Part shown: piece after piece, positions 6,941 to 29,730 of the stretch | Layout of the letters: every line of letters begins with the position of its first letter | How positions within the stretch are numbered: the stretch's first letter is position 1 | Assembly: GCF_030698125.1 (NCBI RefSeq) | Contig: NZ_JAUYNV010000008.1 | Span: 1 to 64,000, forward strand | DNA from: Methyloversatilis sp. | Lineage (GTDB): Bacteria; Pseudomonadota; Gammaproteobacteria; Burkholderiales; Rhodocyclaceae | Length of the DNA: 64,000 bases | Direction of reading: 5' to 3' | Made by a program: the position numbers and the translations under genes | Notes under the pieces: generated by a model | Told to the model about the DNA's origin: nothing | Seen by the model: only the letters and a program-made list of their open reading frames with translations | The model's database searches: none

Positions 6941-7053
6941 GATGGGGATACAGCCTTGCGCGCGCCGTCGCGGGAATGGCCGGCGCACAGGGGCGCAAGC
7001 CTAGCAGCGCGCGCGCTCTGCCGGCAAATGCCATGCACGCGCACCGAATGGCA

Positions 7054-7464
7054 ATGATGGACTGGATGCCCGGCGCCGAAGCCAGCCTGGGTGGCCTGTT
7101 CATCGCCAGCTTTCTCGCGGCGACGATACTGCCGGTCGGCTCCGAGCCGATGTTCATGGCCGTCGTCACGGCGCATCCGGAACAGCGCGAGGCAGCCGTG
7201 CTGCTTGCCACATTGGGCAATACGGCCGGCGGCATGGCCAGCTACTGGATGGGGCGGTTGATTCCGGGCCGGGCGCTGCCGGAACGACTCGAATTCGTGC
7301 GCCGGCACGGCACGCCGGTGCTGCTGCTGTCGTGGACGCCGTTCGTCGGCGATGCGCTGTGCGTCGCAGCCGGCTGGCTGCGCCTGCCGCCCTGGCGCAG
7401 CGCGCTGATGATGGGGCTGGGCAAGGGCGCGCGCTACGTGGCACTGGCCGCGCTGCTGGCATGA
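7054..7464 (+). CDS. YqaA family inner-membrane protein (DedA-like)
   Basis: About 136 residues. The pattern FLAATILPVGSEPMFMAVV, then LATLGNTAGGMASYWMGRL and a C-terminal GKGARYVALAALLA is that of YqaA, a short SNARE-associated/DedA relative whose exact transport role is unsettled. The start is uncertain: in-frame ATGs occur at 7033, 7048, 7054 and 7057 and none has a strong ribosome site. The stop overlaps the ATG of the VanZ-family gene by 4 nt (ATGA), so the two are coupled. Confidence 0.75.
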   Translation: MMDWMPGAEASLGGLFIASFLAATILPVGSEPMFMAVVTAHPEQREAAVLLATLGNTAGGMASYWMGRLIPGRALPERLEFVRRHGTPVLLLSWTPFVGDALCVAAGWLRLPPWRSALMMGLGKGARYVALAALLA

Positions 7465-8552
7465 TCCGCTCCGGCCCGCACACCACCCAGCTGGCGCGCC
7501 ACCTCGCGGTCGCGTGGGCGCTCCTGATCACCTATGCCAGCCTGCACCCGCTGGGCGAGTTCCGCGATGCCGGCGACCGGCTGCTGGATTTTCTGACGGC
7601 GCCCTGGCCGCGCTACTGGACGCGCTTCGACGTCGTCGCCAACGCGCTGGGTTACCTGCCGCTCGGTTTCCTGCTGGTGCCGGCCGCGGCGCCCCGGCTG
7701 CGCCGCACGCCCGCACTGATGTTGGCGATCGTGCTGGCGACCGGGCTGTCGATCAGTCTGGAAGTGCTGCAGCACTACCTGCCGAGTCGTGTGCCGTCGA
7801 ATCTGGACGTGCTGTCCAACATGGTGGGTGCGGCGATCGGCGCGCTGATCGGCTGGCGCTGGGGCGGCGCGCTCAATGACGGCGGTGCGCTTGCCCGCTG
7901 GCGTACGCGGCGCATCGTGCGCGGCCACACCGGCGACATTGCGCTGGTGCTGCTGTGTCTGTGGTGGGTGGCACAGATCGATCCGGACACGCCGCTGTTC
8001 GGTCTGGGTGACCTGCGCGATCTGCTCGGCCTGCCGCCACCGGTCGATTTCACCGCACACCGCTACCGCGCGGTCGAGATCGGTGCCTGTATCTGCGCCA
8101 TGGTCGGCGTGGGCGTGATCGGCTGGCACAGCATGCGCGCGCGCAGCCTGTGGCTGCTGGCCAGCGGCTTCGTCGTCGCGCTGGCGATCAAGGCGGGTTC
8201 GGGGGCGGTGCTGGTGCCCGCCGGCGGTGCCTGGCTGTGGGCGACGCCTGGAGCGCTGGCCGGTCTGGTGGCGGGCACTCTGGCTTTGGGCATCGTGCTG
8301 TGGCTGCCGGCCACGCTGCGTTTCGCGCTGGCCGCGCTGGCGCTGCTGGCGGGTGTCGCGCTGGTGAATCTCGCGCCGTACAACCCTTATCCGTCGGCGG
8401 TGTCGGATGCGTGGCGCGCCGGCCACTTTTTCAATTTCAGCGGTCTGACGCGACTGGCGTCGGCGCTGTGGCCATATTTCGCCCTGCCTTACCTGATGGC
8501 GCTGCAGGCGCGTGAAGGACGCAGCCGACATGCCGCCCACGATCACCGATAA
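7461..8552 (+). CDS. VanZ-family membrane protein
   Basis: A 363-residue multi-spanning protein. The N-terminal half has the VanZ-like pattern: LLITYASLHPLGEFRD, RFDVVANALGYLPLGFLL, a helix with SISLEVLQHYLPSRVPSNLDVLSN, and MVGAAIGALIGW. The C-terminal half has about five more hydrophobic helices. VanZ itself gives low-level teicoplanin resistance by an unclear route; proteins like this are common in betaproteobacteria and the function here is unknown. The start is fixed by the ATGA overlap with the YqaA gene. Confidence 0.75.
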   Translation: MIRSGPHTTQLARHLAVAWALLITYASLHPLGEFRDAGDRLLDFLTAPWPRYWTRFDVVANALGYLPLGFLLVPAAAPRLRRTPALMLAIVLATGLSISLEVLQHYLPSRVPSNLDVLSNMVGAAIGALIGWRWGGALNDGGALARWRTRRIVRGHTGDIALVLLCLWWVAQIDPDTPLFGLGDLRDLLGLPPPVDFTAHRYRAVEIGACICAMVGVGVIGWHSMRARSLWLLASGFVVALAIKAGSGAVLVPAGGAWLWATPGALAGLVAGTLALGIVLWLPATLRFALAALALLAGVALVNLAPYNPYPSAVSDAWRAGHFFNFSGLTRLASALWPYFALPYLMALQAREGRSRHAAHDHR

Positions 8553-8606
8553 TCACGGTCTGACGACCTTCCGCACACGACTCCTTACACATCCGGAGAC
8601 CGGCCG

Positions 8607-8915
8607 ATGAGCCACTTCAAGCACCATGTGTTTTTTTGCTGCAACCAGCGGTCCGAAGGTGAGCAGTGCTGCAACAGCCTGGGCGCGGCCGGGTTGCGCG
8701 ACTACGCCAAGAAGCGCGTCAAGGCGCTCGGCCTGTCGGGCGAAGGCAAGGCGCGCGTCAACATGGCGGGCTGTCTCGACCGCTGCAGCGAAGGCCCGGT
8801 CATGGTGATCTACCCGGAAGCGGTCTGGTACACCTACGTCGATCAGGAAGACATCGACGAAATCATCGAAGAACATCTGGTCAATGACCGCGTGGTCGAG
8901 CGGTTGAAAGTGTGA
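8607..8915 (+). CDS. (2Fe-2S) ferredoxin domain protein, thioredoxin-like fold
   Basis: A 102-residue protein. Cysteines are placed as CC at residues 11-12, CC at 21-22 and CLDRC at 56-60, followed by SEGPVMVIYPEAVWY, the pattern of thioredoxin-like [2Fe-2S] ferredoxins (NuoE C-terminal-like). It probably carries one 2Fe-2S cluster and acts as a small cytoplasmic electron carrier; the partner is unknown. The TGA overlaps the ATG of the hydrolase gene by one base. Confidence 0.8.
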   Translation: MSHFKHHVFFCCNQRSEGEQCCNSLGAAGLRDYAKKRVKALGLSGEGKARVNMAGCLDRCSEGPVMVIYPEAVWYTYVDQEDIDEIIEEHLVNDRVVERLKV

Positions 8916-9580
8916 TGAACGCACGCATACAGTCCGAACGCGGCGTGATCGCCGGCCCGGTCGGCACGATCGAAACGCTGACCGAACTGCCGGACGGCGC
9001 GCCGCGCGCCATCGCGCTGGTCGGTCATCCGCACCCACTGTACGGCGGCACGATGGACAACAAGGTGGTGCTGACAGTGGCGCGCGCGCTGCGCGAACTG
9101 GGTTGCGTCGCGCTGCGGGCGCAGTTCCGCGGCGTCGGCAGGACCGAAGGCACGCACGACGAAGGTCGCGGTGAAACCGACGACCAGCTGGCGGTGATCG
9201 AGCATGCGCGGGCGCGTTTCGGCGATCTGCCGGTCATCGTTGCCGGCTTTTCCTTCGGCGCCTACGTGACGACCCGGGTGGCCGACGCGCTGGCCGCCCG
9301 CGGCGCGCCGGTCGCCGGCATGGTGCTGGTCGGGCTGGCTGCCGGATCGGTCGAAGGCATTCGCCACTACGCGCCGGGTCCGGTGCGCGAGGATGCGCTG
9401 GTGATCCACGGCGAGCGCGATCAGGTCGTGCCGCTGGCGCATGTGCTGGCCTGGGCCGCGCCGCAGAACCTGCCGGTCAGCGTGCTGGGCGAAGCGGACC
9501 ACTTCTTCCACGGCCGGCTGCACGTGCTGCGCCTGCTGATCGAACGCTGGTGGCGCGCCACCGCGCCAGGCGGACAATGA
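8915..9580 (+). CDS. Alpha/beta hydrolase (COG2945-like)
   Basis: A 221-residue alpha/beta hydrolase. The oxyanion region is VGHPHPLYGGTMDNKVV, the nucleophile elbow GFSFGAYVTTRVADAL (Ser in GFSFG), the acid Asp lies in HGERDQVVPL and the terminal His in GEADHFFHGRL. The ATG at 8915 overlaps the stop of the ferredoxin gene; a GTG three bases upstream is less likely. The substrate is unknown. Its stop overlaps the cutA start, so ferredoxin, hydrolase, cutA and probably dsbD form one transcript. Confidence 0.82.
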   Translation: MNARIQSERGVIAGPVGTIETLTELPDGAPRAIALVGHPHPLYGGTMDNKVVLTVARALRELGCVALRAQFRGVGRTEGTHDEGRGETDDQLAVIEHARARFGDLPVIVAGFSFGAYVTTRVADALAARGAPVAGMVLVGLAAGSVEGIRHYAPGPVREDALVIHGERDQVVPLAHVLAWAAPQNLPVSVLGEADHFFHGRLHVLRLLIERWWRATAPGGQ

Positions 9581-9918
9581 GCGACGCACGCATGCTGCTG
9601 GTGCTGACCACGCTGCCCGACGAAGCGGCGGCCACGCGCATCGCGCGCGATCTGGTGGAGCGCGGGCTGGCCGCCTGTGTCAGCATCGGTGCGCCGGTCC
9701 GGTCCATCTATCGCTGGCAGGGTGCGGTCGAGGACGCGCAGGAAGTGCCGCTGACCATCAAGACGAGCGCACTCGCCTACGATGCGCTGGCAGCCGCATT
9801 GCGCGCCGCCCATCCTTATGACCTGCCCGAAATCATTGCCGTGCCGGTCGAGTGCGGGCTGGATGACTACCTGACCTGGGTCGGTGAGTGCACCCGACCC
9901 GCTGCCCCGAGCGCCTGA
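9577..9918 (+). CDS. cutA: Divalent-cation tolerance protein CutA
   Basis: A 113-residue protein of the trimeric PII-like CutA1 family. Family patterns are LVLTTLPDEAAATRIARDLV, GLAACVSIG, SIYRWQGAVEDAQEVPLTIK and HPYDLPEIIAVPV. In E. coli the gene neighbours dsbD (cutA2), and here dsbD also follows 48 nt downstream. The start overlaps the hydrolase stop (ATGA). Confidence 0.92.
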   Translation: MSDARMLLVLTTLPDEAAATRIARDLVERGLAACVSIGAPVRSIYRWQGAVEDAQEVPLTIKTSALAYDALAAALRAAHPYDLPEIIAVPVECGLDDYLTWVGECTRPAAPSA

Positions 9919-9965
9919 CAAATGACTTTCCCACCGATGTTCCGTCCGCCCGTGAAGCGCCACCG

Positions 9966-11855
9966 ATGATCGCGATGCTGCCCCGCTTGTTTCACATGCT
10001 GTGCTTCGCGCTGACCTTGTCGGTCGGCGCTTTCGTACGGGCCGAGCCCGCGCTGCTGCCGCTCGAGCAGGCGTTCCGGCTGTCCGCAACAGTGGTGGAT
10101 GCGACGACGGTCGAAGTGCGCTTCGACATCGCCGACGGCTACTACCTGTATCGCGACAAGTTCGGCTTCGCGGCCGAGCAGGCGGCGCTCGGCCCGGCCG
10201 ACATCCCGCCCGGCAAGATGAAGAAGGACGAAATCTTCGGCGATGTCGAGGTGCACCGCGGCGTACTGCCGATCCGGCTGCCGCTCGGCTCCACGCCCGA
10301 CATGCCGATCATGCTGACCGTGCGTTCGCAGGGCTGCGCCGACGCCGGCATCTGCTATCCGCCGTCCGAACAGACACTGGTGCTGGATCCGGCCAACCCG
10401 GGGGTGCGGGTGAGTGTGGCCGGATTTGACGAGGCGGCCGGCGCTTCGGTGCTTGACCGCCTGCGCGGGCTCGGCGGGCGCAGCGAGCCGCCGGTTGCGG
10501 AACCGGCGGCACCCGCAGCGTCGCAGGCTCAGCCAGCCGCCGCGCCGGCTGGCGACGAGTCGTCGATGGTCGCCGGCCTGATGCGCAGCGGCAATCTGTG
10601 GCTGATCGCGGTGAGCTTCCTCGGTTTCGGGCTGCTGCTGAGCTTCACGCCCTGCGTGCTGCCCATGGTGCCCATCCTGTCCGGCATCATCGTCGGCCAT
10701 GGCGCGCACATTTCGCGCAGCCGCGCTTTCGCGCTGTCGGCAGCTTACGTGCTGGGCATGGCGGTGACCTATGCGCTGGCCGGCGTGGCGGCGGGTCTGT
10801 CCGGCACGCTGCTGTCGGCTGCGCTGCAGAACGCCTGGGTGCTGGGCGGCTTTGCGCTGGTGTTCGTCGTGCTGTCGCTGTCGATGTTCGGCTTCTACGA
10901 GCTGCAACTGCCGACTGCGCTGCAGTCGCGCCTGTCCGACACGGCGAACCACCAGCGCGGCTCGATCGGCGGCCTGCTGCTCATGGGCGCGGCGTCTGCG
11001 CTGATCGTCGGCCCCTGCGTGGCGGCACCGCTGGCCGGTGCACTGCTGTACATCGCGCAGAGCGGCGACGCCGTGCTCGGAGGGCTGGCGCTGTTCGCCA
11101 TGGCGCTCGGCATGGGCGTGCCGCTGATCGCGGTCGGCGTGGCTTCGCGTTCGCTGCTGCCGCACACCGGACCGTGGATGGAAGGCGTGAAACGCTTCTT
11201 CGGCGTGCTGCTGCTGGCCACCGCCATCTGGATCGCCTCGCCGGTATTGCCCGGGCTGGTGACCATGCTGGCCTGGGCGGCGCTGCTGATCGCATCGAGC
11301 ATCTATCTGCACGCACTCGACCCGCTGCCGGCGCACGCCAGCGGCTGGCACAAGCTGTGGAAGGGCGTTGGTGTGATCGCGTTGCTGGCCGGTGCCAGCC
11401 TGCTGATCGGTGCGGCGGCGGGTTCGCGCGACGTGTTGCAGCCGCTGGCGGTGCTGCGCGGTGGTGCTGCAGCGGCGTCCGCGGCACCCGCGTTCCAGCC
11501 GGTCGGCAGCGCGGCCGAACTGGATGCCCGTCTGGCTGCGGCCACGGCACCGGTCATGCTCGATTTCTATGCCGACTGGTGTGTCAGCTGCAAGGAAATG
11601 GAACGTTTCACCTTCAGCGACCCGCAGGTTGCGGCGCAGATGGCGGGCATGACGCTGCTGAAGGCAGACGTGACCGCCAATTCCGCCGAACACCAGGCGC
11701 TGCTGAAGCGATTCGGGCTGTTCGGGCCGCCCGGCATCCTGTTCTTTGACCGGTCGGGACAGGAGATTGCCGGGACGCGGGTGGTCGGTTTCGTGCCGGC
11801 CGGGCCCTTCTCGTCGACGCTGGGCCGCGCGATCGCCGCCAGCGGCTCGCGTTGA
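9966..11855 (+). CDS. dsbD: Thiol:disulfide interchange protein DsbD
   Basis: A 629-residue inner-membrane reductant conduit that passes electrons from cytoplasmic thioredoxin to periplasmic DsbC and cytochrome c maturation. All three redox pairs are present: periplasmic C124/C130 (GCADAGICYPP), membrane C230 (FTPCVLPMVP) and C351 (GPCVAAPLAG), and the C-terminal thioredoxin-like C539/C542 (ADWCVSCKEM). A signal peptide precedes AEPALLPLEQAF. An Ala/Pro linker (residues 180-195) joins the N-domain to eight membrane helices. The MIAML start gives a normal signal peptide. Confidence 0.95.
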   Translation: MIAMLPRLFHMLCFALTLSVGAFVRAEPALLPLEQAFRLSATVVDATTVEVRFDIADGYYLYRDKFGFAAEQAALGPADIPPGKMKKDEIFGDVEVHRGVLPIRLPLGSTPDMPIMLTVRSQGCADAGICYPPSEQTLVLDPANPGVRVSVAGFDEAAGASVLDRLRGLGGRSEPPVAEPAAPAASQAQPAAAPAGDESSMVAGLMRSGNLWLIAVSFLGFGLLLSFTPCVLPMVPILSGIIVGHGAHISRSRAFALSAAYVLGMAVTYALAGVAAGLSGTLLSAALQNAWVLGGFALVFVVLSLSMFGFYELQLPTALQSRLSDTANHQRGSIGGLLLMGAASALIVGPCVAAPLAGALLYIAQSGDAVLGGLALFAMALGMGVPLIAVGVASRSLLPHTGPWMEGVKRFFGVLLLATAIWIASPVLPGLVTMLAWAALLIASSIYLHALDPLPAHASGWHKLWKGVGVIALLAGASLLIGAAAGSRDVLQPLAVLRGGAAAASAAPAFQPVGSAAELDARLAAATAPVMLDFYADWCVSCKEMERFTFSDPQVAAQMAGMTLLKADVTANSAEHQALLKRFGLFGPPGILFFDRSGQEIAGTRVVGFVPAGPFSSTLGRAIAASGSR

Positions 11856-11898
11856 TCGCGTAAAATCCGCTTTCTTTCGCAGCTCACGTCCCTCTCCC

Positions 11899-12507
11899 AT
11901 GTTTTCCGGCATCGTGGCCGCCACCGGCCGCATCACCCATATCGCCCCGCTTGAGCAGGGCGTCCGTCTGACCGTGGACACCGACGGTCTCGGACTCGAC
12001 GACGTCATCGTCGGCGATTCCATCGCCAACAACGGTGTCTGCCTGACCGTGGTTGCCATCGACGGCCGGCTCGCGCTGTTCGACGTGTCGAAGGAAACGC
12101 TGGCGTGCACGGTCGGGCTGGACGCGCCGGGCGAAGTCAATCTTGAAAAGGCGCTGCGCCTGTCGGACCGGCTGGGCGGCCACCTGGTCAGCGGTCACGT
12201 CGATGGCGTGGGCGTGGTGCGCAGCTTCACCCGGATCGGCGAATCGCACGAACTGGTCATCGTCGCGCCGCGGCCGCTGGCGCGCTACATCGCGCGCAAG
12301 GGCTCAATCACGGTGCAGGGCGTCAGCCTGACGGTCAATCGCGTGACCGATGTCGACGAGGGCTGCGAGTTTTCGATCAATCTGATTCCGCACACCGTCG
12401 CGGTGACGACCTTGCGCGCGCTCGCCGCCGGCAGCCGCGTCAATCTGGAAATCGACCTGATCGCCCGCTACGCGGAGCGCATGATGGCTGCAGGAGACAA
12501 CGCATGA
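11899..12507 (+). CDS. ribE: Riboflavin synthase, alpha chain
   Basis: A 202-residue enzyme that dismutates two 6,7-dimethyl-8-ribityllumazines to riboflavin. It starts with the invariant MFSGIV and contains two lumazine-binding barrels: the first with NGVCLTVV, the second with GGHLVSGHVDG and VQGVSLTVN. It opens the rib cluster. The 43-nt gap from dsbD is too short for an FMN riboswitch, so none regulates it here. Its stop overlaps ribBX (ATGA). Confidence 0.95.
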   Translation: MFSGIVAATGRITHIAPLEQGVRLTVDTDGLGLDDVIVGDSIANNGVCLTVVAIDGRLALFDVSKETLACTVGLDAPGEVNLEKALRLSDRLGGHLVSGHVDGVGVVRSFTRIGESHELVIVAPRPLARYIARKGSITVQGVSLTVNRVTDVDEGCEFSINLIPHTVAVTTLRALAAGSRVNLEIDLIARYAERMMAAGDNA

Positions 12508-21275: not shown

Positions 21276-22179
21276 GGACAATCGCGATCGTCTTCGCCTG
21301 CAGTGGCAGTGCGGCGACGGCAACACGCTGATCGTTGCCGACCAGATCGGCCTGTCGCCCGCCGATCTGGTGGGCCACCTCAATACCATTCACACCCGGC
21401 GCATCCAGGTCATCGGCGTGCCGGAAATCCTGTGGGTCGAAAACGTCAGCCCGCGCAAGGTCGAGGACATCGTCGGCGCGCTGCTTGAAGCCCATCCGCC
21501 GGCCTTCATCGTCGCCGACGGCGCCCAGCCACCGGCAACGATACGTGCCGGCTGTGCGGAGCACGGCATTCCGCTCATCACGACTCAACGCAGCGCGGCA
21601 TCGGTCATCGACCAGGTGCGCGCCTATCTCGCGCGCGAACTGGCCGACCAGACCACATTGCACGGCGTGTCGATGGATGTGCTCGGCATGGGTGTGCTGA
21701 TCACCGGTGATTCGGGCGTCGGCAAGAGCGAACTTGCACTCGAACTGATTTCGCGCGGTCACGGGCTGGTTGCCGACGACTGCGTGGAAATCTCGCGCAT
21801 CGCACCCACCGTGCTCGAAGGGCGCTGCCCCGAACTGCTGAAGGACTTTCTCGAGGTCCGCGGGCTTGGTGTGCTGAACATCCGCACCGTGTTCGGCGAG
21901 ACCGCCTGTCGGCGGAAGATGAAGCTGCAGCTGGTCGTGCACCTGCAGAAGCAGGTGACCGGTCTGCCTGAAGCCACGCGCATGCCGCTCGACAACGAGG
22001 TGATGGACATCCTCGGCGTGAAGATACGCAAGGTCGTCATACCGGTGGCAGCCGGACGCAATCTGGCCGTGCTCGTCGAAGCGGCCGTACGCGTCACGAT
22101 CCTGCGCTTCCGCGGCATCGACTCGACGCTCGAATTCGTTGAGCGTCAGCGTCGCGCGCTCGGTGGCGACGAGGGCTGA
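21244..22179 (+). CDS. hprK: HPr kinase/phosphorylase
   Basis: A 311-residue bifunctional enzyme that phosphorylates HPr on its regulatory serine and reverses this with phosphate. Walker A GDSGVGKSE lies at 155-163 and the family signature is LEVRGLGVLNIRTVFG. In proteobacteria lacking sugar PTS it is thought to tune the PTS-Ntr branch. The genes that often come next (rapZ, an EIIA-Man gene, ptsH, ptsI) are missing; a hairpin ends the cluster. Confidence 0.95.
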   Translation: MRKLSVARLFEDNRDRLRLQWQCGDGNTLIVADQIGLSPADLVGHLNTIHTRRIQVIGVPEILWVENVSPRKVEDIVGALLEAHPPAFIVADGAQPPATIRAGCAEHGIPLITTQRSAASVIDQVRAYLARELADQTTLHGVSMDVLGMGVLITGDSGVGKSELALELISRGHGLVADDCVEISRIAPTVLEGRCPELLKDFLEVRGLGVLNIRTVFGETACRRKMKLQLVVHLQKQVTGLPEATRMPLDNEVMDILGVKIRKVVIPVAAGRNLAVLVEAAVRVTILRFRGIDSTLEFVERQRRALGGDEG

Positions 22180-22214
22180 AACAGAACTTCCCTGTTCGAT
22201 GACATGCGAATATC

Positions 22215-22250
22215 ATGCGAATCGACTGACTTATGTCAGTCGATTCGCAT
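22215..22250. terminator. Perfect 16-bp stem-loop after hprK
   Basis: Arms ATGCGAATCGACTGAC (22215-22230) and GTCAGTCGATTCGCAT (22235-22250) are exact complements with a TTAT loop, followed by TTTCATTCATTG. The position 35 nt after hprK fits a terminator. The T-run is short and the stem is AT-richer than its surroundings, so a processing site or protein-binding operator for the next gene is a second reading. Confidence 0.6.
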
Positions 22251-22282
22251 TTTCATTCATTGTTGTCGTGAGGAGGTACATC

Positions 22283-22609
22283 ATGTCCGCATACCGTTTT
22301 ACCTCGGCGCTGACCGCCCTGTCAGCCGCTTTCCTGTTCGTCTCGTCGACCGCCGCCATCGCCGGGCCGCAGCAGGAGAAGATGAAGGCCTGCAACGCTG
22401 AAGCGAAAGAGAAGGCCCTCAAGGGCGACGAACGCCGCAGCTTCATGAGCGGCTGCCTGTCGTCGGGTTCTGCCGCTAAACCGACGCTGACTGCAGACGA
22501 GGCCAGCGCGCTGAAGGACCGCAAGAAACAGTGCCGCACCGAAGCCACGGACAAGGCACTCAAGGGCGAAGACCGAAAATCCTTCATTGCGGAATGCGTC
22601 AAGGCCTGA
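22283..22609 (+). CDS. PsiF-repeat secreted protein
   Basis: A 108-residue protein with a signal peptide (cleavage near AAIAG) and two PsiF repeats: MKACNAEAKEKALKGDERRS and KKQCRTEATDKALKGEDRKS, each followed by F-x-x-x-C-L/V. PsiF in E. coli is induced by phosphate starvation; its job is unknown. GAGGAGG precedes the ATG. The long inverted repeat lies immediately upstream. Confidence 0.85.
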   Translation: MSAYRFTSALTALSAAFLFVSSTAAIAGPQQEKMKACNAEAKEKALKGDERRSFMSGCLSSGSAAKPTLTADEASALKDRKKQCRTEATDKALKGEDRKSFIAECVKA

Positions 22610-22750
22610 CTTCCGTGTTGCCGGTGTCGCAACCTCGGCACCGGCGGATGTGGCTTATGCAACAACCCGCGGTGAATCGTGCCGCACGGGGCGCGGCGAC
22701 GCGATTTCCTTTTGCTATAGTCCGGCGGTGTTCGACTGTCGGGGTACGTC

Positions 22751-23437
22751 GTGCTGCGCTATCGCAATAAGGGCATCCGGCTGCTGTGTGGCGTGACGTT
22801 CCTTGCAGCCGCGTCGATGGCAGCGGCATTCAGTTTTTCCGAAGAAGCGGAGAAGGACGCGCGGGCTGAAGAAGAACGCAGCGCCGCCTCGCACACTGCG
22901 CTGTCGCTCCCCGCGAGCTGTGTCGACGAGCTGAAGCGCAAGAAGATCATGATCGTCATGGGCGAGCGCACCGGCGAAGGCATCACCGCCAGCCAGGCCC
23001 GCTACAGCCCGCATTTCAATTCAATCAACAAGCGCCTGCTCAGACAGGGCATCCGCACCTATTCCCAGCAGGAAATCACGGCCCATATCGCCCAGGCAGA
23101 AGTAGACGCCTACTTCCGCAACGATCCCGACGCCGCACTGGCGGCCTCGAAAAAGATGGGCGCCCAACTCATCCTGCGCGGCACGATTGCCTCGCGCTCG
23201 ATGCTGAATCCGGTGGTCCGCATTCCCGAGGTCTACGTGACGATCGCCTTCGCGCTGATGAAGCCCGACGGTACGCTGCTGTCCGATGCCCAGGCATCGG
23301 CCGACTCATACTCGGGCAGCGACACGCTGGCCATGGCAGGTACGCTGGTGGAAGAAAAGGCCGACGGCGTCGTGAGTACGCTGTTGGGCGGCTATTGCGC
23401 GAATGCGGCATCGAGCGGCGGCAAGAAAAGAAAGTAG
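22751..23437 (+). CDS. Secreted protein of unknown family upstream of CsgG-like gene
   Basis: A 228-residue protein with a GTG start and a hydrophobic signal segment (LLCGVTFLAAASMAAAF). The mature part reads as an alternating alpha/beta domain: KKIMIVMGERTGEGI, RLLRQGIRTYSQQEITAHI, a helix with DPDAALAASKKMGAQLILRG, then strands with EVYVTIAFALMKPDGTLL. The 'stress an open name, set a low-order index, return a value' fold resembles CsgG/LpoB/FlgT-type periplasmic domains, but this is a visual judgement only. TATAGT at 22716 could be its -10. It lies 97 nt before the CsgG-like gene. Confidence 0.6.
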   Translation: MLRYRNKGIRLLCGVTFLAAASMAAAFSFSEEAEKDARAEEERSAASHTALSLPASCVDELKRKKIMIVMGERTGEGITASQARYSPHFNSINKRLLRQGIRTYSQQEITAHIAQAEVDAYFRNDPDAALAASKKMGAQLILRGTIASRSMLNPVVRIPEVYVTIAFALMKPDGTLLSDAQASADSYSGSDTLAMAGTLVEEKADGVVSTLLGGYCANAASSGGKKRK

Positions 23438-23534
23438 GCAGTCCACACGGGGCAACGGCCTTCAGGCCCGAGCATCTCCAGCCGGCGCAGAACCGGCGTG
23501 CAATCGATCGGGATGACCAAATGAAAGGGATGTC

Positions 23535-24350
23535 ATGACTATCAACCACGGGATGTTGCGCCACAGGGTGGCACTTGCAGTCGCACTCGCCTGCATCGGG
23601 GCGCCGGCTTTTGCACAACCGACCTTCGAGAGCGCTTCGCCGACGGCCGGTACCAGCACTTCCGACAAGGCCAACGAAAGCGCCGACAAGGCGATGTACA
23701 AGGCTGTCGAGTACAGCAACAAGAACAAGAAGGGGCCGACCGTCATCGTCGTCCCGGGCGAAATCAAGAGCAACAACGCGACGTTCACGCAGAAGTTCGC
23801 GTCCAACAACATCGCCGACTTCGGCGAACTCGAACTGTCGCAGGCCAATTTCAAGGTGCTCGAGCGGTCCGATCTCGGTCCGCTGCTGGGCGAGTTCCAG
23901 CTGGCCTACTCGATGGGCGACCCCGACTCGGCGCGCAAGATGCTGCAGAAGGGCAAGCTGAAGACGACCAAGTACGTCGTGAAGTTCGACATCCTGAAAG
24001 CGGAGCAGGTCGCTGCCGCGAAGGAAGGCGTCAGCGGTCGGGCGATCGGCAACATCATCAGCATCCTCGGCGGCAGCCGCGGCAGCTACGCCGCCGGCGA
24101 AGCGGTCGGATCGGTCGAAACTGCTGCTGCTTCGGGCGTGTGGATCATCGGCATGCGCTACAAGATCATCGACGCAAACACCACGGAACAGCTGGCGCAG
24201 GGCTATACCGAAGAGAAGATGGAAGTCGGCGCCAAGGGCACCTCCATCCTCGGTGTGTCGAGCAGCCAGGAAGGCGGCATCACGCTGGACGGCATGGTGC
24301 AGCGGCTGGTGCAGAAATCAGTCTGGGAAATCGACTCGAAATACAAGTAA
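23535..24350 (+). CDS. Secreted CsgG-like protein
   Basis: A 271-residue protein with a signal peptide ending APAFAQ. Features that recall CsgG/HfaB: an early KGPTVIVVPGEIKSNN strand, ELELSQANFKVLERSDLGPLLGE (the family's 'potential lipoprotein-secretion' motif around LERSDL), TKYVVKFDILKAEQ, and GMRYKIIDANTTEQLAQGY followed by repeated Gly-Ser turns. It has no lipobox Cys, so unlike CsgG it is probably soluble or peripherally attached in the periplasm. The kinase gene starts 25 nt downstream, so co-transcription is likely. Confident on secretion, moderate on family. Confidence 0.65.
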   Translation: MTINHGMLRHRVALAVALACIGAPAFAQPTFESASPTAGTSTSDKANESADKAMYKAVEYSNKNKKGPTVIVVPGEIKSNNATFTQKFASNNIADFGELELSQANFKVLERSDLGPLLGEFQLAYSMGDPDSARKMLQKGKLKTTKYVVKFDILKAEQVAAAKEGVSGRAIGNIISILGGSRGSYAAGEAVGSVETAAASGVWIIGMRYKIIDANTTEQLAQGYTEEKMEVGAKGTSILGVSSSQEGGITLDGMVQRLVQKSVWEIDSKYK

Positions 24351-24375
24351 GCAACCTGCTGCCGGAGCACAAGCC

Positions 24376-26754
24376 GTGAGCCTTCCTGCCAGACTGGGCA
24401 AGTACGACATCCTGCGCGAGCTCGGTCAGGGTGCCATGGGCATCGTCTATGAAGGGCGCGACCCGGTCATCGACCGCCGGGTCGCCATCAAGACGCTCAA
24501 GCGCGAGCAGCTGGAACGCAGCGAAGCCGACGAGGTGATTGCGCGCTTCAAGCGCGAGGCACAGGCAGCCGGACGGCTCAACCATCCGAATGTCGTCGCC
24601 ATCTACGAGTATGGCGAAGCCGAAGACGGCACGGCTTTCATTGCGATGGAGTTCGTACAGGGCCGCGAACTGAAGGATCTGTTCGAAGCCGACGAGCGCA
24701 TACCGCTGCCCATGGTCGGACAGCTCATGGGGCAGTTGCTCGACGCATTGGGGCATGCACACCGCCATGGTGTCACCCACCGCGACATCAAGCCGGCGAA
24801 CATCATCCTGCTGGCTGACAACACGGTGAAGGTGGCGGACTTCGGTGTCGCGCGGATCGAATCGTCGAATCTGACCCAGACCGGCACGGTCATCGGCACG
24901 CCGTCGTACATGTCGCCCGAGCAATTCATGGGGCAGACGGTCGATGGCCGCAGCGACCTGTTTTCTGCGGGTGTCGTGCTGTATCAGCTGCTGACCGGCG
25001 AAAAGCCCTTCACCGGCGCGCTGACCACCATCATGCACAAGGTGCTGAAGGAAGATCCGACCTGGCCTTCGGTGCTCAACGTGCACGTCAATGCCCGGCT
25101 GGACGCCGTGGTGCGCAAGGCGCTCGCCAAACGTCCGGACGACCGCTTTCAGGATGCCGCGACATTCCGCGCGGCACTCGATGCAGCGCTGGTCGCGTCC
25201 GCCGACGATGACGCCACCGTCGTCAACCTGTCGGACGAGGACGCCACGCTCGTGACGCAGGCGGATGCGACGCTTGCAACGCCAGCGACAGCGACAGCGC
25301 CAACGCCAACGGCGGTCAAGCAGGCGCCGGCGATCGAGTCGCCGCCCCGCGCTCACCCCGTCAATACGCCCGCGCGCCGGGGACCGCTGCCCCTTGTGAT
25401 GGCGGCCGCTGCGTTGGTCGCCGTGTGCGCGGGCGTCTGGTTCGCACTGCAGCCGGCCGCGGACACGTCGGCGCCGACTGCCGCCACTGAAGCTATCGCA
25501 CCGGCCGCGGCGCCTGCCGAGCCTGTTTCGACAGCCGCCGCGACCCCGGAGCGCGCGCTCGACCCCGGCGTCACGGTGATCAGCGCAATCGGGCTGGCCG
25601 ACCCGACCGACCCGCGCTTCGCCAACGATCAGGCTGCGCTGGCGGGCGCACTGCGCGACGACGCGCGGCGCCAGATACTCGAAAAGGCGGTCGCCCTGTT
25701 CGTCGATCCGAAGTCGGTCAACAGCCATTACGCACTGCTGCAGGACAAGCTGCTGGGTCGCAGCGGTGATTTCATCCAGGCGGTGCTCGAAGAGGCGCCG
25801 CCCGAGCTGGGCAAGGACGGTCTGATGGCAGGCGCCGTGCGTGCCGCAGTGCGCGTACGCCAGGTGCAGAAGTCGTTGAACCAGATGTCGGAAGACGAAC
25901 GGGTCGATTTCATCCGCAACAACGGTGATCCGAAGGTTTCGGTCGCCGTGTCATCGCGCTGGGCCGACGGCGATCCGTCCGCCCCCGCGCAGCGTTCGCC
26001 GCTGGCCGAGAACATGTTGAAGCAGCATGTGCAGGGCTTTGGCTTCCGCACCTGGAACGACGATGCGGGCAGCCAGCAGGTGGCCGACTTCAGCATTGAC
26101 GGCGAAGTGCGCTTCAAGCGACTGAGCGCCAGGCTGGCGGCGTCCGGACTGACCATAGAAAAAGTGGTGCTCACCTCGTGGACCGTCCGCTGCACCGACC
26201 GCAAGACCGGTGAAGAGGTCTATCTGAATACCGAAATTCCGGAAGGTGCCAGCTGGGCGTCGGAAGAAAAGGCGCTGGCCGACATCGGAAAGCGGGTCGG
26301 CGAGCAGTTCAGCCGCGATTTCTTCCTGAGTCACTTCCACTTCGCCGGCCGCAAGGTCAGGCTGGATATTGCCGGACTGCCGGGTCAGGACACCGCGCAG
26401 GCGCTGCTGCGCGAAATCGCCTCGATGCGGGCAGTGCTCGGCACCGAAGTGCTGCGCATGGACGGGGCGGGTGCCGCGCTGAACGCCGACATGTCGGGCG
26501 GACTGGCCGAAACCAGCCAGAATGTGCAGGCCGGCATCCTGATGCCGCTGTCGCGCAAGCTCGGCCGCAACTGTCTGCGCATCGTGTCGAGCAGTCCGGA
26601 GGCGGTGGCGCTGGAATTCGAGGCGGCGTGTCGCGAGCCGTCGGTGCTTGCGCGGCTGGAAACGCTGCCGCCGGCTGCGCTGATGGACGCTGCACCGGCA
26701 AGGCGCGAGGCCGTGGTGCGCGACCCGGACATGCTGAAGCGGATCAGTATCTGA
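24376..26754 (+). CDS. Transmembrane Ser/Thr protein kinase with large C-terminal extracytoplasmic region
   Basis: A 792-residue protein with a GTG start. Residues 9-275 form a Hanks-type kinase: G-loop GQGAMGIVYEG (17-27), VAIK with K39, HRDIKPAN with D137, DFG with D155 and GTPSYMSPEQ in the activation segment. A Thr/Ala/Pro linker leads to one membrane helix (about 338-359, LVMAAAALVAVCAGVW). About 430 residues beyond it should be periplasmic and match no domain I know; they contain helices, then strands (VRLDIAGLPGQDTAQALLRE) that recall CsgG/LpoB-like folds. PASTA repeats are absent. The upstream gene is the CsgG-like one; an FHA-cyclase gene converges on it. Confidence 0.9.
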   Translation: MSLPARLGKYDILRELGQGAMGIVYEGRDPVIDRRVAIKTLKREQLERSEADEVIARFKREAQAAGRLNHPNVVAIYEYGEAEDGTAFIAMEFVQGRELKDLFEADERIPLPMVGQLMGQLLDALGHAHRHGVTHRDIKPANIILLADNTVKVADFGVARIESSNLTQTGTVIGTPSYMSPEQFMGQTVDGRSDLFSAGVVLYQLLTGEKPFTGALTTIMHKVLKEDPTWPSVLNVHVNARLDAVVRKALAKRPDDRFQDAATFRAALDAALVASADDDATVVNLSDEDATLVTQADATLATPATATAPTPTAVKQAPAIESPPRAHPVNTPARRGPLPLVMAAAALVAVCAGVWFALQPAADTSAPTAATEAIAPAAAPAEPVSTAAATPERALDPGVTVISAIGLADPTDPRFANDQAALAGALRDDARRQILEKAVALFVDPKSVNSHYALLQDKLLGRSGDFIQAVLEEAPPELGKDGLMAGAVRAAVRVRQVQKSLNQMSEDERVDFIRNNGDPKVSVAVSSRWADGDPSAPAQRSPLAENMLKQHVQGFGFRTWNDDAGSQQVADFSIDGEVRFKRLSARLAASGLTIEKVVLTSWTVRCTDRKTGEEVYLNTEIPEGASWASEEKALADIGKRVGEQFSRDFFLSHFHFAGRKVRLDIAGLPGQDTAQALLREIASMRAVLGTEVLRMDGAGAALNADMSGGLAETSQNVQAGILMPLSRKLGRNCLRIVSSSPEAVALEFEAACREPSVLARLETLPPAALMDAAPARREAVVRDPDMLKRISI

Positions 26755-26760
26755 CGCCGT

Positions 26761-26775
26761 CCGGCGGCGCGCCGG
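26761..26775. terminator. Small hairpin between convergent kinase and cyclase genes
   Basis: CCGGCG (26761-26766) and CGCCGG (26770-26775) pair around GCG, in the 21 nt between the two stops. There is no T-run; it may slow both polymerases, but its role is inferred from position. Confidence 0.35.
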
Positions 26776-27666
26776 TCAGCCCAGTACCTCGAACTGCATC
26801 AGGTCGATGCCCTGTTCCATCGCGCTGTGGCCGAAGCCGATGGTGCCGTGACCGCGCAGGATCATTTCCTCGCGCTTCAGGATGACTTCGTTTTCGCCTT
26901 CGATGCGCAGGAAGGTGCCGTTGGTGCTCTGGTCGATCAGCACGAACTTGTCGCGCCTGCGCTCGATGCGGGCGTGATTGCGCGAGGCGCGCTGATCCTT
27001 GATGACGAACTCGTTGCCCATGTCCCGGCCGAGCGTGAGCGGGCCTTGCGTCGGGTCCAGCGTGCGCTCGATTTCTCGATACTTGACGAACAGGCGCGCC
27101 ATCACGTACAGCGGTGCGGTGCTTGACGCCTTCATCGTGAGGTCGGCGCCTTCCTGCCACAGCACTTCGCACACCCGCACGTCTTCGGCCTTGCCCTTGA
27201 CGGTCAGCGCATCGATTTCGCGCACCGCCGGGGCGAGCGACAGGGTCAGCGACGACAGGGTTTCGGCGGTGGTGATCACCTGACCGGCCTGTGCAAGACC
27301 GGCCATGCGGGCCGCGGTATTGACCGTGTCGCCGAACACGTCGTCGTTTTCCTCGATCGCCGGTCCGTAATGGAAGCCGACGCGGATCGCCAGCTTGACG
27401 CCCGATACCGGCGGCAGGTCGGTGATGCGGTGCTGCATTTCGCAGGCCGCCTGGATGCCTTCGTCGGCACTCGGGAACGTCGTCATGACCTCGTCGCCGA
27501 TGGTCTTGATGACCTTTCCGCCGTGGCTGTCGATCACCCGGCGGATGCGGTTCAGGCAACGTTCGACCGCACGCAGGGCTTCGGCATCCCCGAGCTTTTC
27601 GTACAGCCGGGTACTGCCCGACACGTCAGCGAACAGCACGCAAAGAGATTTTTGTTGGGAGCTCAT
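26776..27666 (-). CDS. Class III adenylate/guanylate cyclase with C-terminal FHA domain
   Basis: A 296-residue cytoplasmic protein. The cyclase domain (residues 1-175) has both metal-binding Asp residues (D14 in FADVSGSTR, D58 in IGDEVMTTF) and the transition-state Asn/Arg in GDTVNTAARMA, so it looks catalytically complete. The FHA domain (about 205-290) shows LTLGRDMGNEFVI, SRNHARI and STNGTFLRI, the phosphothreonine-binding Gly-Arg, Ser-Arg-Asn-His and Asn-Gly pattern. Start MSSQQKSLCVLF is chosen because upstream codons are off-pattern. It converges on the Ser/Thr kinase gene, a natural phospho-donor for its FHA domain (inference). Confidence 0.9.
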   Translation of the reverse strand: MSSQQKSLCVLFADVSGSTRLYEKLGDAEALRAVERCLNRIRRVIDSHGGKVIKTIGDEVMTTFPSADEGIQAACEMQHRITDLPPVSGVKLAIRVGFHYGPAIEENDDVFGDTVNTAARMAGLAQAGQVITTAETLSSLTLSLAPAVREIDALTVKGKAEDVRVCEVLWQEGADLTMKASSTAPLYVMARLFVKYREIERTLDPTQGPLTLGRDMGNEFVIKDQRASRNHARIERRRDKFVLIDQSTNGTFLRIEGENEVILKREEMILRGHGTIGFGHSAMEQGIDLMQFEVLG

Positions 27667-27766
27667 GAGTGGCCGGAGTGGCGAACGACTGTCAATGCAT
27701 TTTACAAATGCGCGCCCGATCTGTCCGGTTTTTGGTCGGCAATCATCCAGATGGCTGCCGCATGCG

Positions 27767-28507
27767 TCACAGATGTGCGCTGCGCCCGCCGTCCACCGCG
27801 ATGATCTGACCGGTGATGTACGGCGCATCTTCGATCAGGAAGCGTACCGTACGCGCGATGTCCTGTGGGCAGCCTTCGCGTTTGAGCAGGGTGTGTTCGA
27901 CGATGCGCGCACGTTCGGTTGCGTCGAACAGCGGGTCATCCGGCCATTGTATCGGTCCCGGCGCCACGCCATTCACCCGGACCTGCGGCGCAAGTTCGAT
28001 CGCCAGCGCCCGGGTCAGCGTGGCCAGCGCGCCTTTCGATGCGCTGTACAGCGCGTAGCCGGCAAGCGGACGTTCGGCGTGGATGTCGGCAATATTGACG
28101 ATGCAGCCGCCGCGCGCCCGCAGTTCGGGCGCGGCGGCCTGGGCCAGGAACAGCGGCGCCTTGAAATTGCTGCCGACCAGGTTGTCCCAGTCCTGAGCGG
28201 TCACGCTGCCCAGCGGCGTCGGGAAGAAGCTCGATGCATTGTTCACCAGCGCGTCGAGCCGGCCCCACAGCGCGGTGGCCGCCGTCACCAGCGGCGGCAG
28301 GCCGTCGGTATCGAGCAGATCGGCCGCCAGCCCGGCGGCGCTGCCGGGGCGCAGTGCATTCAGTGATTCGACCAGCGCATGCGCCTCGCCGGTCGAACGG
28401 TGATGGTGGATCACCACCCGCCAGCCAGCGCCGTGCAGCGTGCGCGCGGTTTGCGCGCCGACCCGACGCGCCGCGCCGGTGATCAAGACTACCCGTTCGT
28501 CGTTCAT
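27767..28507 (-). CDS. Pteridine reductase-like short-chain dehydrogenase
   Basis: A 246-residue SDR. The NADPH motif is TGAARRVG, the Arg-rich variant of TGxxxGxG seen in pteridine reductases (FolM/PTR1). The catalytic Tyr-x-x-x-Lys is YALYSASKGAL, the NNASSFF turn and the PGPIQWPDD loop are also PTR1-like. It probably reduces dihydromonapterin or dihydrofolate. It is divergent from the MidA-like gene. Confidence 0.85.
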   Translation of the reverse strand: MNDERVVLITGAARRVGAQTARTLHGAGWRVVIHHHRSTGEAHALVESLNALRPGSAAGLAADLLDTDGLPPLVTAATALWGRLDALVNNASSFFPTPLGSVTAQDWDNLVGSNFKAPLFLAQAAAPELRARGGCIVNIADIHAERPLAGYALYSASKGALATLTRALAIELAPQVRVNGVAPGPIQWPDDPLFDATERARIVEHTLLKREGCPQDIARTVRFLIEDAPYITGQIIAVDGGRSAHL

Positions 28508-28578
28508 GTCGCCCTGCCCGATTGTGCCGCGCCCGTCAGTTGCCGCATCATGCGCAGCCCGCCCGAATCTTTGCCCAT

Positions 28579-29730
28579 ATGTCCCCGCCCGTGCATCTGC
28601 CCCCTCCCGACGCCGACGCCCTCGACCACAGCGCCCGCCTGCAGGCGCTGATCCGGGCCGAAATCGCCGACAGCGGCTGGATGCCGTTCAGCCGCTACAT
28701 GGCGCTTGCGCTGTACGCGCCCGGCCTCGGCTATTACAGCGGTGCGCTGCAAAAGTTCGGCAGCGGCGGCGATTTCGTTACCGCGCCCGAGCTGTCGCCG
28801 CTGTTCGGGCGCTGTCTGGCGACCCAACTTGCCGAACTGATGCATCTGTCGGCGCCGCACCTGCTGGAAGCAGGCGCCGGCAGCGGCCGGCTCGCCGCCG
28901 ATCTGCTGCGCGAACTCGAGCGCATCGGCCGCGCCCCCGAAAGTTACCGCATCCTTGAACTGTCGGCCGATCTGCGCGAGCGCCAGCGCGCGCTGATCGA
29001 GCGCGAAGTGCCGGCACTGGCCGGGCGTGTCGAATGGCTGGATGGGCTGCCCGAGCGCTTCAGTGGCGTGGTGTTCGGCAACGAACTGCTCGATGCTTTG
29101 CCGGTCGAGCGCATCCGCGCCACGGCGCAGGGCATCGAAGAGACCGGCCTCGTGCTCGACGGCGGCGGGCAGATCGCAGCGGACTGGCGCGCCGCCCCGC
29201 CGGCGCTGGCCGACGCGGTCCGCGCGCTCGGCCTGCCGTCCGGCTACGAGACCGAACTGGGCCTGGCCGGTCGCGCCTGGGTCGCCGAATGGGCGCGGCG
29301 CATCGATCGCGGTGCGTTGCTGCTGATCGACTACGGCTTCCCGCAGGCCGAGTACTACCACCCCGACCGCAGCACCGGCACGCTGATGTGCCACTACCGC
29401 CACCATGCGCACGCCGAGCCGATGTGGATGCCCGGCCTGTGCGACATCACGGCCCATGTCGACTTCACAGCGGTGGCGCAGAGCGCATTCGACGCCGGCC
29501 TGTCGCTCGCCGGCTATACCTCGCAAGCGAGCTTCCTGCTGAACTGCGGCCTGCCTGCGCTGTTGTCGGATGAACCGGAACCGCTGGCTCGCGCGAAGCG
29601 CAACGCGGAAGTGAACCAGCTCACCTCGCCGGCCGAAATGGGCGAGTTGTTCAAGGTGATCTGCATGACGCGCGGCATTGCCGCATCGCTGACCGGCTTC
29701 GCACGCGGCGACCGCAGCCATACGCTCTGA
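28579..29730 (+). CDS. MidA-family SAM-dependent methyltransferase
   Basis: A 383-residue protein of the DUF185/MidA (NDUFAF7) family. Landmarks are GWMPFSRYMALALYAPGLGYYSG, GDFVTAPELSPLFGRCLA, the SAM loop EAGAGSGRLAADLL, GNELLDALPVERI and IDYGFPQAEYYHPDRSTGTL. The mitochondrial homologue dimethylates an arginine of complex I subunit NDUFS2; the bacterial target is unproven. The gene end abuts pbpC, transcribed the other way. Confidence 0.88.
   Translation: MSPPVHLPPPDADALDHSARLQALIRAEIADSGWMPFSRYMALALYAPGLGYYSGALQKFGSGGDFVTAPELSPLFGRCLATQLAELMHLSAPHLLEAGAGSGRLAADLLRELERIGRAPESYRILELSADLRERQRALIEREVPALAGRVEWLDGLPERFSGVVFGNELLDALPVERIRATAQGIEETGLVLDGGGQIAADWRAAPPALADAVRALGLPSGYETELGLAGRAWVAEWARRIDRGALLLIDYGFPQAEYYHPDRSTGTLMCHYRHHAHAEPMWMPGLCDITAHVDFTAVAQSAFDAGLSLAGYTSQASFLLNCGLPALLSDEPEPLARAKRNAEVNQLTSPAEMGELFKVICMTRGIAASLTGFARGDRSHTL

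Follow-up and report, generated by a model that had tools for sequence, protein, structure and literature searches.

A conserved four-gene locus of Methyloversatilis as a candidate envelope-signalling module containing a Hanks-type kinase and an FHA-cyclase

To our knowledge, a handful of actinobacterial and firmicute cases aside, for most bacterial Ser/Thr kinases neither the signal perceived nor the target is known. Among the closest described systems to the locus presented here are the PASTA receptor kinases (PknB, StkP and PrkC), which combine a kinase domain, a juxtamembrane linker, one transmembrane segment and an extracytoplasmic sensor half. The juxtamembrane domain of StkP is reported to carry seven phosphothreonines (PMC12077195). 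Partnerships between kinases and FHA proteins have also been described. In Mycobacterium ulcerans the FHA protein MupFHA associates with the autophosphorylated kinase PknQ, with the contact placed by modelling at the activation loop; the passages describing this association mention no cyclase (PMC4238996). In type VI secretion the Gram-negative Ser/Thr kinase PpkA is connected to Fha via a phosphothreonine, described as lying on TssL (PMC3953482). Finally, PKN2 of Myxococcus xanthus is described as a Hanks-type kinase coupled to a cyclase-like domain within one polypeptide (PMC1262709).

The locus lies within 64,000 nucleotides of a Methyloversatilis sp. contig (NZ_JAUYNV010000008.1, positions 1 to 64,000), referred to below as the window, and consists of four genes. 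Three are on the forward strand and encode a secreted protein, S1 (22751–23437; 228 aa, GTG start), a secreted CsgG-like protein (23535–24350; 271 aa) and a transmembrane Hanks-type Ser/Thr kinase (24376–26754; 792 aa, GTG start). The fourth, on the reverse strand (26776–27666; 296 aa), encodes a cytoplasmic class III cyclase with a C-terminal FHA domain (the FHA-cyclase); it is convergent to the kinase gene with 21 nt between the two stops, and a longer frame from 27828 would overlap the upstream pteridine reductase. The first-pass annotation had proposed these four genes, with gaps of 97 nt between S1 and the CsgG-like gene and 25 nt before the kinase, together with kinase, cyclase and FHA domains and a large periplasmic half to the kinase. 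All four frames are present with these gaps, PF00069, PF00211 and PF00498 are each matched above cut-off, and one strong hydrophobic segment is found at kinase residues 340–358. Its label ‘CsgG-like’ fared less well; the gene does encode a secreted protein, but the match of the window protein to PF03783 covers about 50 residues and falls below the curated cut-off (16.8 against 20.8 bits). As terminator-like counts in 22150–28600 are close to those of shuffled sequence (7 against 4.9), it is only the spacing that suggests that the three forward genes may be co-transcribed; a promoter and terminator scan of the same region showed no terminator-like site on the + strand from S1 to the kinase.

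The cytoplasmic domain of the kinase (24403–25152, + strand) contains the motifs GxGAMG, VAIK, HRDIKPAN, DFG and GTPSYMSPEQ and matches PF00069 at 2.1e-49. In an alignment of 72 sequences, comprising the window and 71 further loci, the Gly loop, the VAIK lysine, HRD, DFG and SPE are invariant wherever letters are present (68–71 of 72). A Kyte–Doolittle scan places the single transmembrane segment at 25393–25449 (+ strand), and with this one strong hydrophobic segment the C-terminal ~394 residues are predicted to lie in the periplasm. This half, KinC (25570–26751, + strand; alignments A1, 22 sequences, and A5, 68 sequences), separates the protein from the PASTA kinases whose layout it otherwise shares, as the Pfam scan of the kinase found no PASTA domain and the protein scores 334.8 bits with NF033483, whose cut-off is 450. 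The structure model of KinC (pLDDT 88.8) predicts an FlgT_N-like first part, a CsgG/PelC/TolB-like middle (residues 118–258) and a C-terminal alpha/beta part, and Cys335 and Cys354 (KinC numbering) are invariant. The best match of a KinC profile to solved structures (0.21) was not trusted.

S1 similarly contains two invariant cysteines among aligned members (Cys57 and Cys216), and comparison of its structure model predicts an FlgT/PelC/TolB/CsgG type of fold, similar to LpoB and the FlgT middle domain. The window’s S1 has no match in the Pfam scan. Among the 19 aligned members (A2), eight match LpoB (PF13036; best E 0.011) and one the FlgT middle domain (PF16539; E 0.11), while the S1 of locus L159 misses the LpoB/FlgT_M curated cut-off with 18.7 against 22.3 bits. 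When the S1 profile was compared with solved structures, a match (0.008) to part of S-adenosylmethionine synthase was taken as chance. The CsgG-like protein (alignments A3 and A7) shows the highest conservation in the set of four alignments A1–A4, with a mean column identity of 74%, and 10 of 21 aligned members, the window’s included, match CsgG (best E-value 0.0024). Its best matches to solved structures (0.15 by sequence and 0.063 by profile) were not trusted, and hhalign found no relationship between its alignment and the clear CsgG lipoprotein of L135, the alignments being shallow.

The predicted models of S1 and KinC match over most of a domain in an FlgT/PelC/TolB-N/CsgG-like fold. As hhalign profile–profile comparison of the shallow S1, CsgG-like and KinC alignments showed no sequence relationship, the common S1/KinC fold is a feature of the models. 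S1, the CsgG-like protein and KinC all seem to fall within the FlgT/PelC/TolB/CsgG group of folds. The fold predicted for S1 and for KinC 118–258 is that of CsgG/HfaB, PelC, LpoB and FlgT, with weak Pfam matches to CsgG and LpoB; the window’s proteins differ in that they reach the curated cut-off of none of these families and in that one of them is joined to a kinase. A search of PHROGs returned a single weak match (0.077), of unknown function.

This relationship could be read in the opposite direction to sensing. CsgG, PelC and LptE function in export or assembly machines, and the predicted S1 and KinC folds are related to theirs. The CsgG-like protein and S1 might accordingly form an export or envelope-assembly device that the kinase and cyclase regulate rather than read. 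Each of five tandem CsgG-like pairs read by eye comprises one soluble and one lipobox form, which speaks for such a device and for the sensing reading alike. A regular expression for a lipobox-type signal hits 11 of 74 CsgG-like copies, some of the hits falling within ordinary signal peptides. Against the device, the neighbouring genes include no recurrent candidate for an exported substrate, and KinC is covalently attached to the kinase across the membrane segment, an arrangement seen in receptor kinases. We consider the regulated device unlikely, and prefer the reading in which the periplasmic proteins control the kinase.

Recurrence of the neighbours in other genomes had been set beforehand as a check on that reading, and the four genes were found together in many genomes and contexts. 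The comparison drew on 80 named loci with a KinC-coding sequence. Of these, 61 extend 4 kb or more upstream, and every one of the 61 has both S1 and the CsgG-like gene, in the order S1–CsgG-like–kinase in 60; the remaining locus (L115) carries both just downstream. In a 150-genome panel of the family all 25 genomes with KinC also have S1 and the CsgG-like gene, and in a 399-genome panel of the order the CsgG-like gene occurs in 18 of 18 KinC genomes and alone in two others. A different arrangement is seen in L159, where S1, a stand-alone secreted KinC, a CsgG-like protein carrying a peptidoglycan-binding domain and a separate kinase form a split version from another order.

The usual site of the locus in the family is beside rpoN-hpf-ptsN (rpoN in 15 of 20 loci, with some others cut by contig ends), and the region from rpoN to the pteridine reductase is syntenic in most family loci. 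Conservation might thus reflect chance, or hitch-hiking in a stable stretch of chromosome. Against this, 17 of the 20 wide loci that lack rpoN, hpf and ptsN keep all four genes, while no other neighbour family occurs in more than 5 of 40 non-rpoN loci. Chance adjacency is very unlikely given this recurrence across loci, contexts and genome panels, and hitch-hiking is refuted as far as genomes can tell. Since the frames in that count were picked crudely and the clusters are unannotated, a rarer partner, for example a phosphatase, may lie beside the module.

The same neighbourhood bears on whether the locus is an anti-phage defence system, with a kinase like PD-T4-6 and a cyclase like those of Pycsar. 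PADLOC model matches do point that way (PD-T4-6, 8.4e-107 over kinase residues 8–393; PycC, 2.7e-10), although what these models hit are the kinase and cyclase domains in general. Neither S1 nor the CsgG-like protein is matched by any PADLOC model, no effector gene recurs and the usual family place is the one beside rpoN-hpf-ptsN, all of which makes a defence role highly improbable.

The FHA-cyclase contains a catalytic domain (27184–27660, − strand; PF00211, 8.2e-22) and an FHA domain (26863–27036, − strand; PF00498, 8.4e-12), both above cut-off. Six residues that we take to be catalytic from the numbering of Rv1625c (D14, K54, D58, D109, N116 and R120) are invariant in 20 aligned module cyclases (A4), and K54 and D109 presumably indicate ATP as the substrate. 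In the FHA domain G213 R214, S228 R229 x H231 and N249 G250 are invariant in the same alignment, corresponding to the GR, SxxH and NG phosphothreonine-binding motif named for FHA domains (PMC1262709). Downstream sequence of 2.5 kb or more is available for 67 loci, and in 61 of them the gene lies convergent to the kinase, across contexts; the other six have no adjacent cyclase, and in G081 the cyclase lies about 70 kb from the kinase locus (L141).

The cyclase is also found well beyond the module. At a threshold of 1e-20 or better it has matches in 110 of 150 family genomes, compared with 25 for KinC, and a second match is present in the window’s own genome (L142). Six cyclases in five genomes without the kinase half (L135–L140) have intact catalytic and FHA residues; in four of these loci (L135–L137 and L140) S1, the CsgG-like gene and the kinase are lost and the cyclase is kept, a joint loss that speaks for the module. 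The breadth of the cyclase family, the second match in the own genome, the intact cyclases of kinase-less genomes and the loci lacking an adjacent cyclase would fit a unit of kinase and periplasmic proteins whose neighbouring cyclase is not the main effector, the linker sites recruiting other FHA proteins and the cyclase serving several kinases. The convergent adjacency and L133 count against that arrangement. The L133 kinase has no periplasmic half and, by eye, no linker motif (described below), there is no CsgG-like gene, and the cyclase (outside A4) carries D14G, D109E, D113E, N116A and R120H, so that four of the six catalytic residues are lost. From these sequences L133 would represent joint decay of kinase, CsgG-like gene and cyclase. 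On balance we regard a non-effector cyclase as a minority explanation, and the neighbouring cyclase as the probable partner of the kinase.

A possible point of contact lies in the juxtamembrane linker, which in the window contains three D-A-T-[VL]-x sites (DATVVN, DATLVT and DATLAT; 25210–25281, + strand), candidate phosphothreonine docking sites for the FHA domain of the cyclase. Across the 72 kinases, 64 linkers contain at least one D-A-T-L-V-N-like site and the total is 132, against a mean of 5.2 and a maximum of 17 in 1000 shuffles, for a motif defined after the linkers were inspected and in related sequences. Eleven divergent representatives contain 20 linker sites where 0.85 are expected, whereas periplasmic linkers contain 2 against 1.7 expected. 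More sparsely, the motif is present in the 72 kinase domains (58 sites) and the 72 KinC (43) as well. In L104, L107, L108 and L121 the linker motif reads DRTELS instead of DATLVN. The window’s own genome offers a weak control: among eight other kinases, three without a recognized HRDxK and two in overlapping loci that are the same frame, the four distinct tails contain no site, one tail being only 19 residues long at a locus end. No strict site is found in the split kinase of L159 or the kinase of L148. Motif presence was at one stage considered to track cyclase presence, and this was dropped: L147 has two EATV sites and no adjacent cyclase, and G457, G535, G653 and G056, also without an adjacent cyclase, have an FHA-cyclase elsewhere in the genome, so no rule relating motif and cyclase is claimed.

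Taken with the conserved unit, the intact active sites and the predicted S1 and KinC folds, the linker array suggests that the four genes probably form one envelope-signalling module, in which periplasmic CsgG-fold proteins control a kinase that recruits the cyclase via phosphothreonine. S1, the CsgG-like protein and KinC would come together as a periplasmic assembly close to the outer membrane or the peptidoglycan, and the state of this assembly would govern clustering and autophosphorylation of the kinase. The active kinase would phosphorylate threonines of its own linker (D-A-pT-L-V-N type), at which the FHA domain of the cyclase would dock; docking would bring the soluble enzyme to the membrane and alter how much product, most likely cAMP, it makes. 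Complex formation, the nature and direction of the signal, linker phosphorylation, FHA docking and the cAMP product are all inferred. The first-pass annotation had already envisaged such an outside-in pathway. Recurrence of the unit and the invariant active sites agree with it, and its route from kinase to FHA-cyclase becomes more concrete with the candidate docking array. The excess of cyclase over KinC genomes and the intact cyclases in kinase-less genomes weigh against a strict four-part pathway.

The module would therefore differ from PknQ–MupFHA in its candidate linker array and in an FHA protein that is itself an enzyme, from PpkA–Fha in that this protein is a cyclase and only four genes are widely kept, and from PKN2 in that kinase and cyclase are distinct polypeptides and the cyclase carries an FHA domain. 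From the PASTA kinases it is set apart by the predicted FlgT/CsgG-type sensor half, the fixed secreted partners and the FHA-cyclase. The genes look like an undescribed pathway reporting envelope state to the cell interior; searches of open-licence PubMed Central full text returned no account of it. More tentatively, and with somewhat less than even confidence, they could represent a new class of receptor kinase pathway, in which a periplasmic ring or ladder of three CsgG/FlgT-fold proteins, one the receptor half of the kinase, monitors how the outer membrane or peptidoglycan is being assembled and switches the Hanks-type kinase accordingly. Through several phosphothreonines in its linker, the kinase would then recruit a soluble adenylate cyclase. 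If so, Ser/Thr kinase signalling would be wired directly to cAMP. For Gram-negatives the module offers candidate answers at both ends, with named periplasmic partners at the input and docking sites and an enzyme at the output, and it raises the possibility that a fold of the CsgG/FlgT type, familiar from rings of export systems and flagella, serves as a kinase receptor.

The CsgG-like gene also occurs without the kinase, in three genomes (G019, G023 and G029), which speaks against the preferred reading. In two of these it is adjoined by a gene for a secreted caspase-like protein.

The four genes described in the first-pass annotation all proved to be as stated there on the sequence of the window: S1, encoding a secreted protein (22751-23437, +), a CsgG-like gene (23535-24350, +), a kinase gene (24376-26754, +) and an FHA-cyclase gene (26776-27666, -). 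The N-termini of S1 (228 aa) and the CsgG-like protein (271 aa) resemble signal peptides when read by eye. The kinase (792 aa, GTG start at 24376) consists of a catalytic domain (residues 10-259), a linker rich in Ala, Pro and Thr, its sole strong hydrophobic segment (residues 340-358) and a large part beyond it, the final 394 residues of which are defined as KinC. The closest named relatives of this KinC are three Methyloversatilis-labelled records with 98% identity. The cyclase (296 aa) has an N-terminal catalytic domain and a C-terminal FHA domain. Upstream of the module lie lptB, rpoN, hpf, ptsN and hprK, named by reading sequence, and a gene for a PsiF-like small secreted protein (22283-22609, +; PF07769, 5.2e-26) directly 5' of S1; downstream lie a pteridine reductase gene and then others, the latter named by reading sequence. 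Just 5' of the PsiF-like gene, at 22215-22250, a perfect stem of 16 pairs, with a loop of 4 bases and a T-rich stretch after it, is the longest terminator-like stem in the region scanned. Five close relatives (L052-L056) have another gene for a Ser/Thr kinase, on the opposite strand and about 5 to 7 kb 3' of the kinase, which was not seen in the window stretch 14001-36000.

Recurrence of the neighbouring genes, a check asked for in the first-pass annotation, is borne out across the family, the order and the named loci. In the family panel of 150 genomes, 25 have KinC, 30 have S1 (three by remote partial matches) and 29 have the CsgG-like protein; each of the 25 KinC genomes also has S1 and the CsgG-like gene. 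The CsgG-like gene is present without the kinase in G019, G023 and G029. In the order panel (399 genomes) KinC is found in 18 genomes across seven families, all of which are among the 20 with the CsgG-like gene, and in the class panel it is found in 4 of 274, namely the window's own genome, G653 from another order (full length) and two short weak matches. A further 80 named loci were picked by KinC and then read with profiles. All 61 of those that extend 4 kb or more upstream have S1 and the CsgG-like gene, and in 60 the three genes run S1, CsgG-like gene, kinase; L115 is rearranged, with all four genes still within about 5.3 kb. The convergent cyclase is present in 61 of the 67 loci with at least 2.5 kb downstream (absent from L070, L073, L081, L116, L123 and L128), and the canonical four in 48 of the 54 with room on both sides. 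Twelve further loci were taken from the order panel, five being the same records as named loci; 11 have S1, the CsgG-like gene and the kinase, the exception being L148, which reaches a contig end, and 10 have the cyclase, which is missing from L147 and L148, both of one family. Since the family loci are mostly syntenic over the whole region (rpoN was seen in 15/20), conservation of the module was tested outside the rpoN region. Among 47 wide loci, rpoN, hpf and ptsN are lacking from 20, of which 17 keep all four genes; the commonest other neighbour family, when open frames were crudely clustered, reaches 5 of 40 loci outside the rpoN context. That the four genes form a unit is near certain.

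Median pairwise identity among the module kinases is about 71% in the kinase domains, 53% in KinC and 30% in the linkers. The cytoplasmic linkers, about 70 residues long, nevertheless share a repeated site with, in successive positions, Asp/Glu, mostly Ala, Thr, Leu/Val, mostly Val, and often Asn, which in the window's kinase lies at residues 279-284, 289-294 and 297-302. In its strict form, [DE]xT[LVI], the site was counted 132 times across 72 cytoplasmic linkers, one from the window and the others from 71 loci, against a shuffle mean of 5.2 and maximum of 17 (1000 shuffles), figures that measure effect size rather than discovery odds because the motif was picked after the linkers were seen. 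The strict site is present in 64 of the 72, and a relaxed form in 72/72 (raw count). Taking one representative per KinC cluster leaves 20 sites in 11 linkers against 0.85, maximum 5 (2000 shuffles), with 10 of the 11 carrying a site. In their periplasmic linkers these proteins show 2 sites against 1.7 expected, and elsewhere in the 72 proteins there are 58 in the kinase domains, each of about 250 residues, and 43 in the KinC parts. In the simplest reading the linker sites would be autophosphorylated and then bound by the FHA domain of the cyclase. Juxtamembrane phosphothreonines are known in StkP, according to an excerpt of PMC12077195, and in an excerpt of PMC4238996 an FHA protein associates with autophosphorylated PknQ, where the contact was modelled on the activation loop. 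Alternatively the FHA domain could dock at the activation loop of the module's kinase, which has conserved threonines of its own. We regard docking of the cyclase on the kinase linker as moderately probable.

The module would represent a receptor kinase pathway in which a periplasmic CsgG-fold assembly acts on the kinase, the kinase on its phosphothreonine linker and the linker on the FHA-cyclase, which would make a cyclic nucleotide; an outside-in direction of the signal is likelier than inside-out. The module can be classed with transmembrane Hanks-type kinase signalling. No account of the four-gene module turned up in full-text searches of open PubMed Central papers, which also returned none with csgg, kinase, FHA domain and adenylate cyclase together. 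Known relatives have some of its parts; none of them, as far as is known and searched, has the combination.

A split version occurs at L159 of G653. At this locus S1 scores 152.7 bits against its profile, and KinC, here a secreted protein in its own right, scores 350.4 bits over positions 1-390 of 392. The CsgG-like protein (328.6 bits) begins with a lipobox-like LSGC and carries a peptidoglycan-binding domain (PF01471, 5.2e-17) at its C-terminus. The kinase gene is separate and divergent (PF00069, 2.1e-56), and the kinase tail has no strict linker site; an FHA-cyclase lies elsewhere in the genome. Fusion of KinC to a kinase in one group of genomes and its place beside one in another is classic evidence that the two are functionally linked, although here it comes from one genome; the peptidoglycan-binding domain hints at the location of the assembly. 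Each of the five tandem CsgG-like pairs read (L071, L075, L081, L112 and L129) combines one plain signal peptide with one lipobox.

Losses show which parts belong together. At L133 (G031) S1 is kept, the kinase frame stops soon after the membrane segment, and neither KinC nor the CsgG-like gene remains; no [DE]xT[LVI] site was seen by eye in the kinase linker. In the L133 cyclase D14, D109, D113, N116 and R120, which all 21 compared rows keep (two being the window's own sequence), are replaced by G, E, E, A and H, respectively; its FHA residues are intact. This is a single event, and caution against over-reading it is needed because the cyclases of L135-L142 keep all ten examined residues: six at L135-L140, from five genomes without KinC, that of L141, 70 kb from its kinase, and that of L142 (C46:77881-78747), a second cyclase-FHA protein of the window's own genome, 37% identical, with catalytic and FHA residues intact. 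At L135, L136, L137 and L140 the cyclase is kept next to the PsiF-like gene, and S1, the CsgG-like gene and the kinase are absent; at L135 a lipoprotein-like protein over the CsgG cut-off (5251-6216, +; 41 bits) adjoins the cyclase in the place expected for the three.

L075 encodes a stand-alone KinC paralogue (11250-12089, +), membrane-anchored or secreted, between kinase and cyclase; it is similar to KinC in the first and last parts but not in the middle domain. In two of the three genomes that keep a CsgG-like gene but lack the kinase, the next gene encodes a secreted caspase-like protein, at L129 (8546-10060, -) and L132 (6790-8274, -); these proteins match PF00656 at 9.7e-36 and 1.8e-36, respectively, and their C-terminal end resembles S1. 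At L161 a secreted FlgT_N-like protein (5830-10104, +; near threshold) is encoded two genes 5' of a CHASE2-cyclase receptor, possibly a parallel case in which FlgT-fold proteins serve the sensor of a cyclase. The window's own genome also encodes a kinase (L168, C7:12561-13223) with a tail that, read by eye, resembles a degenerate cyclase domain.
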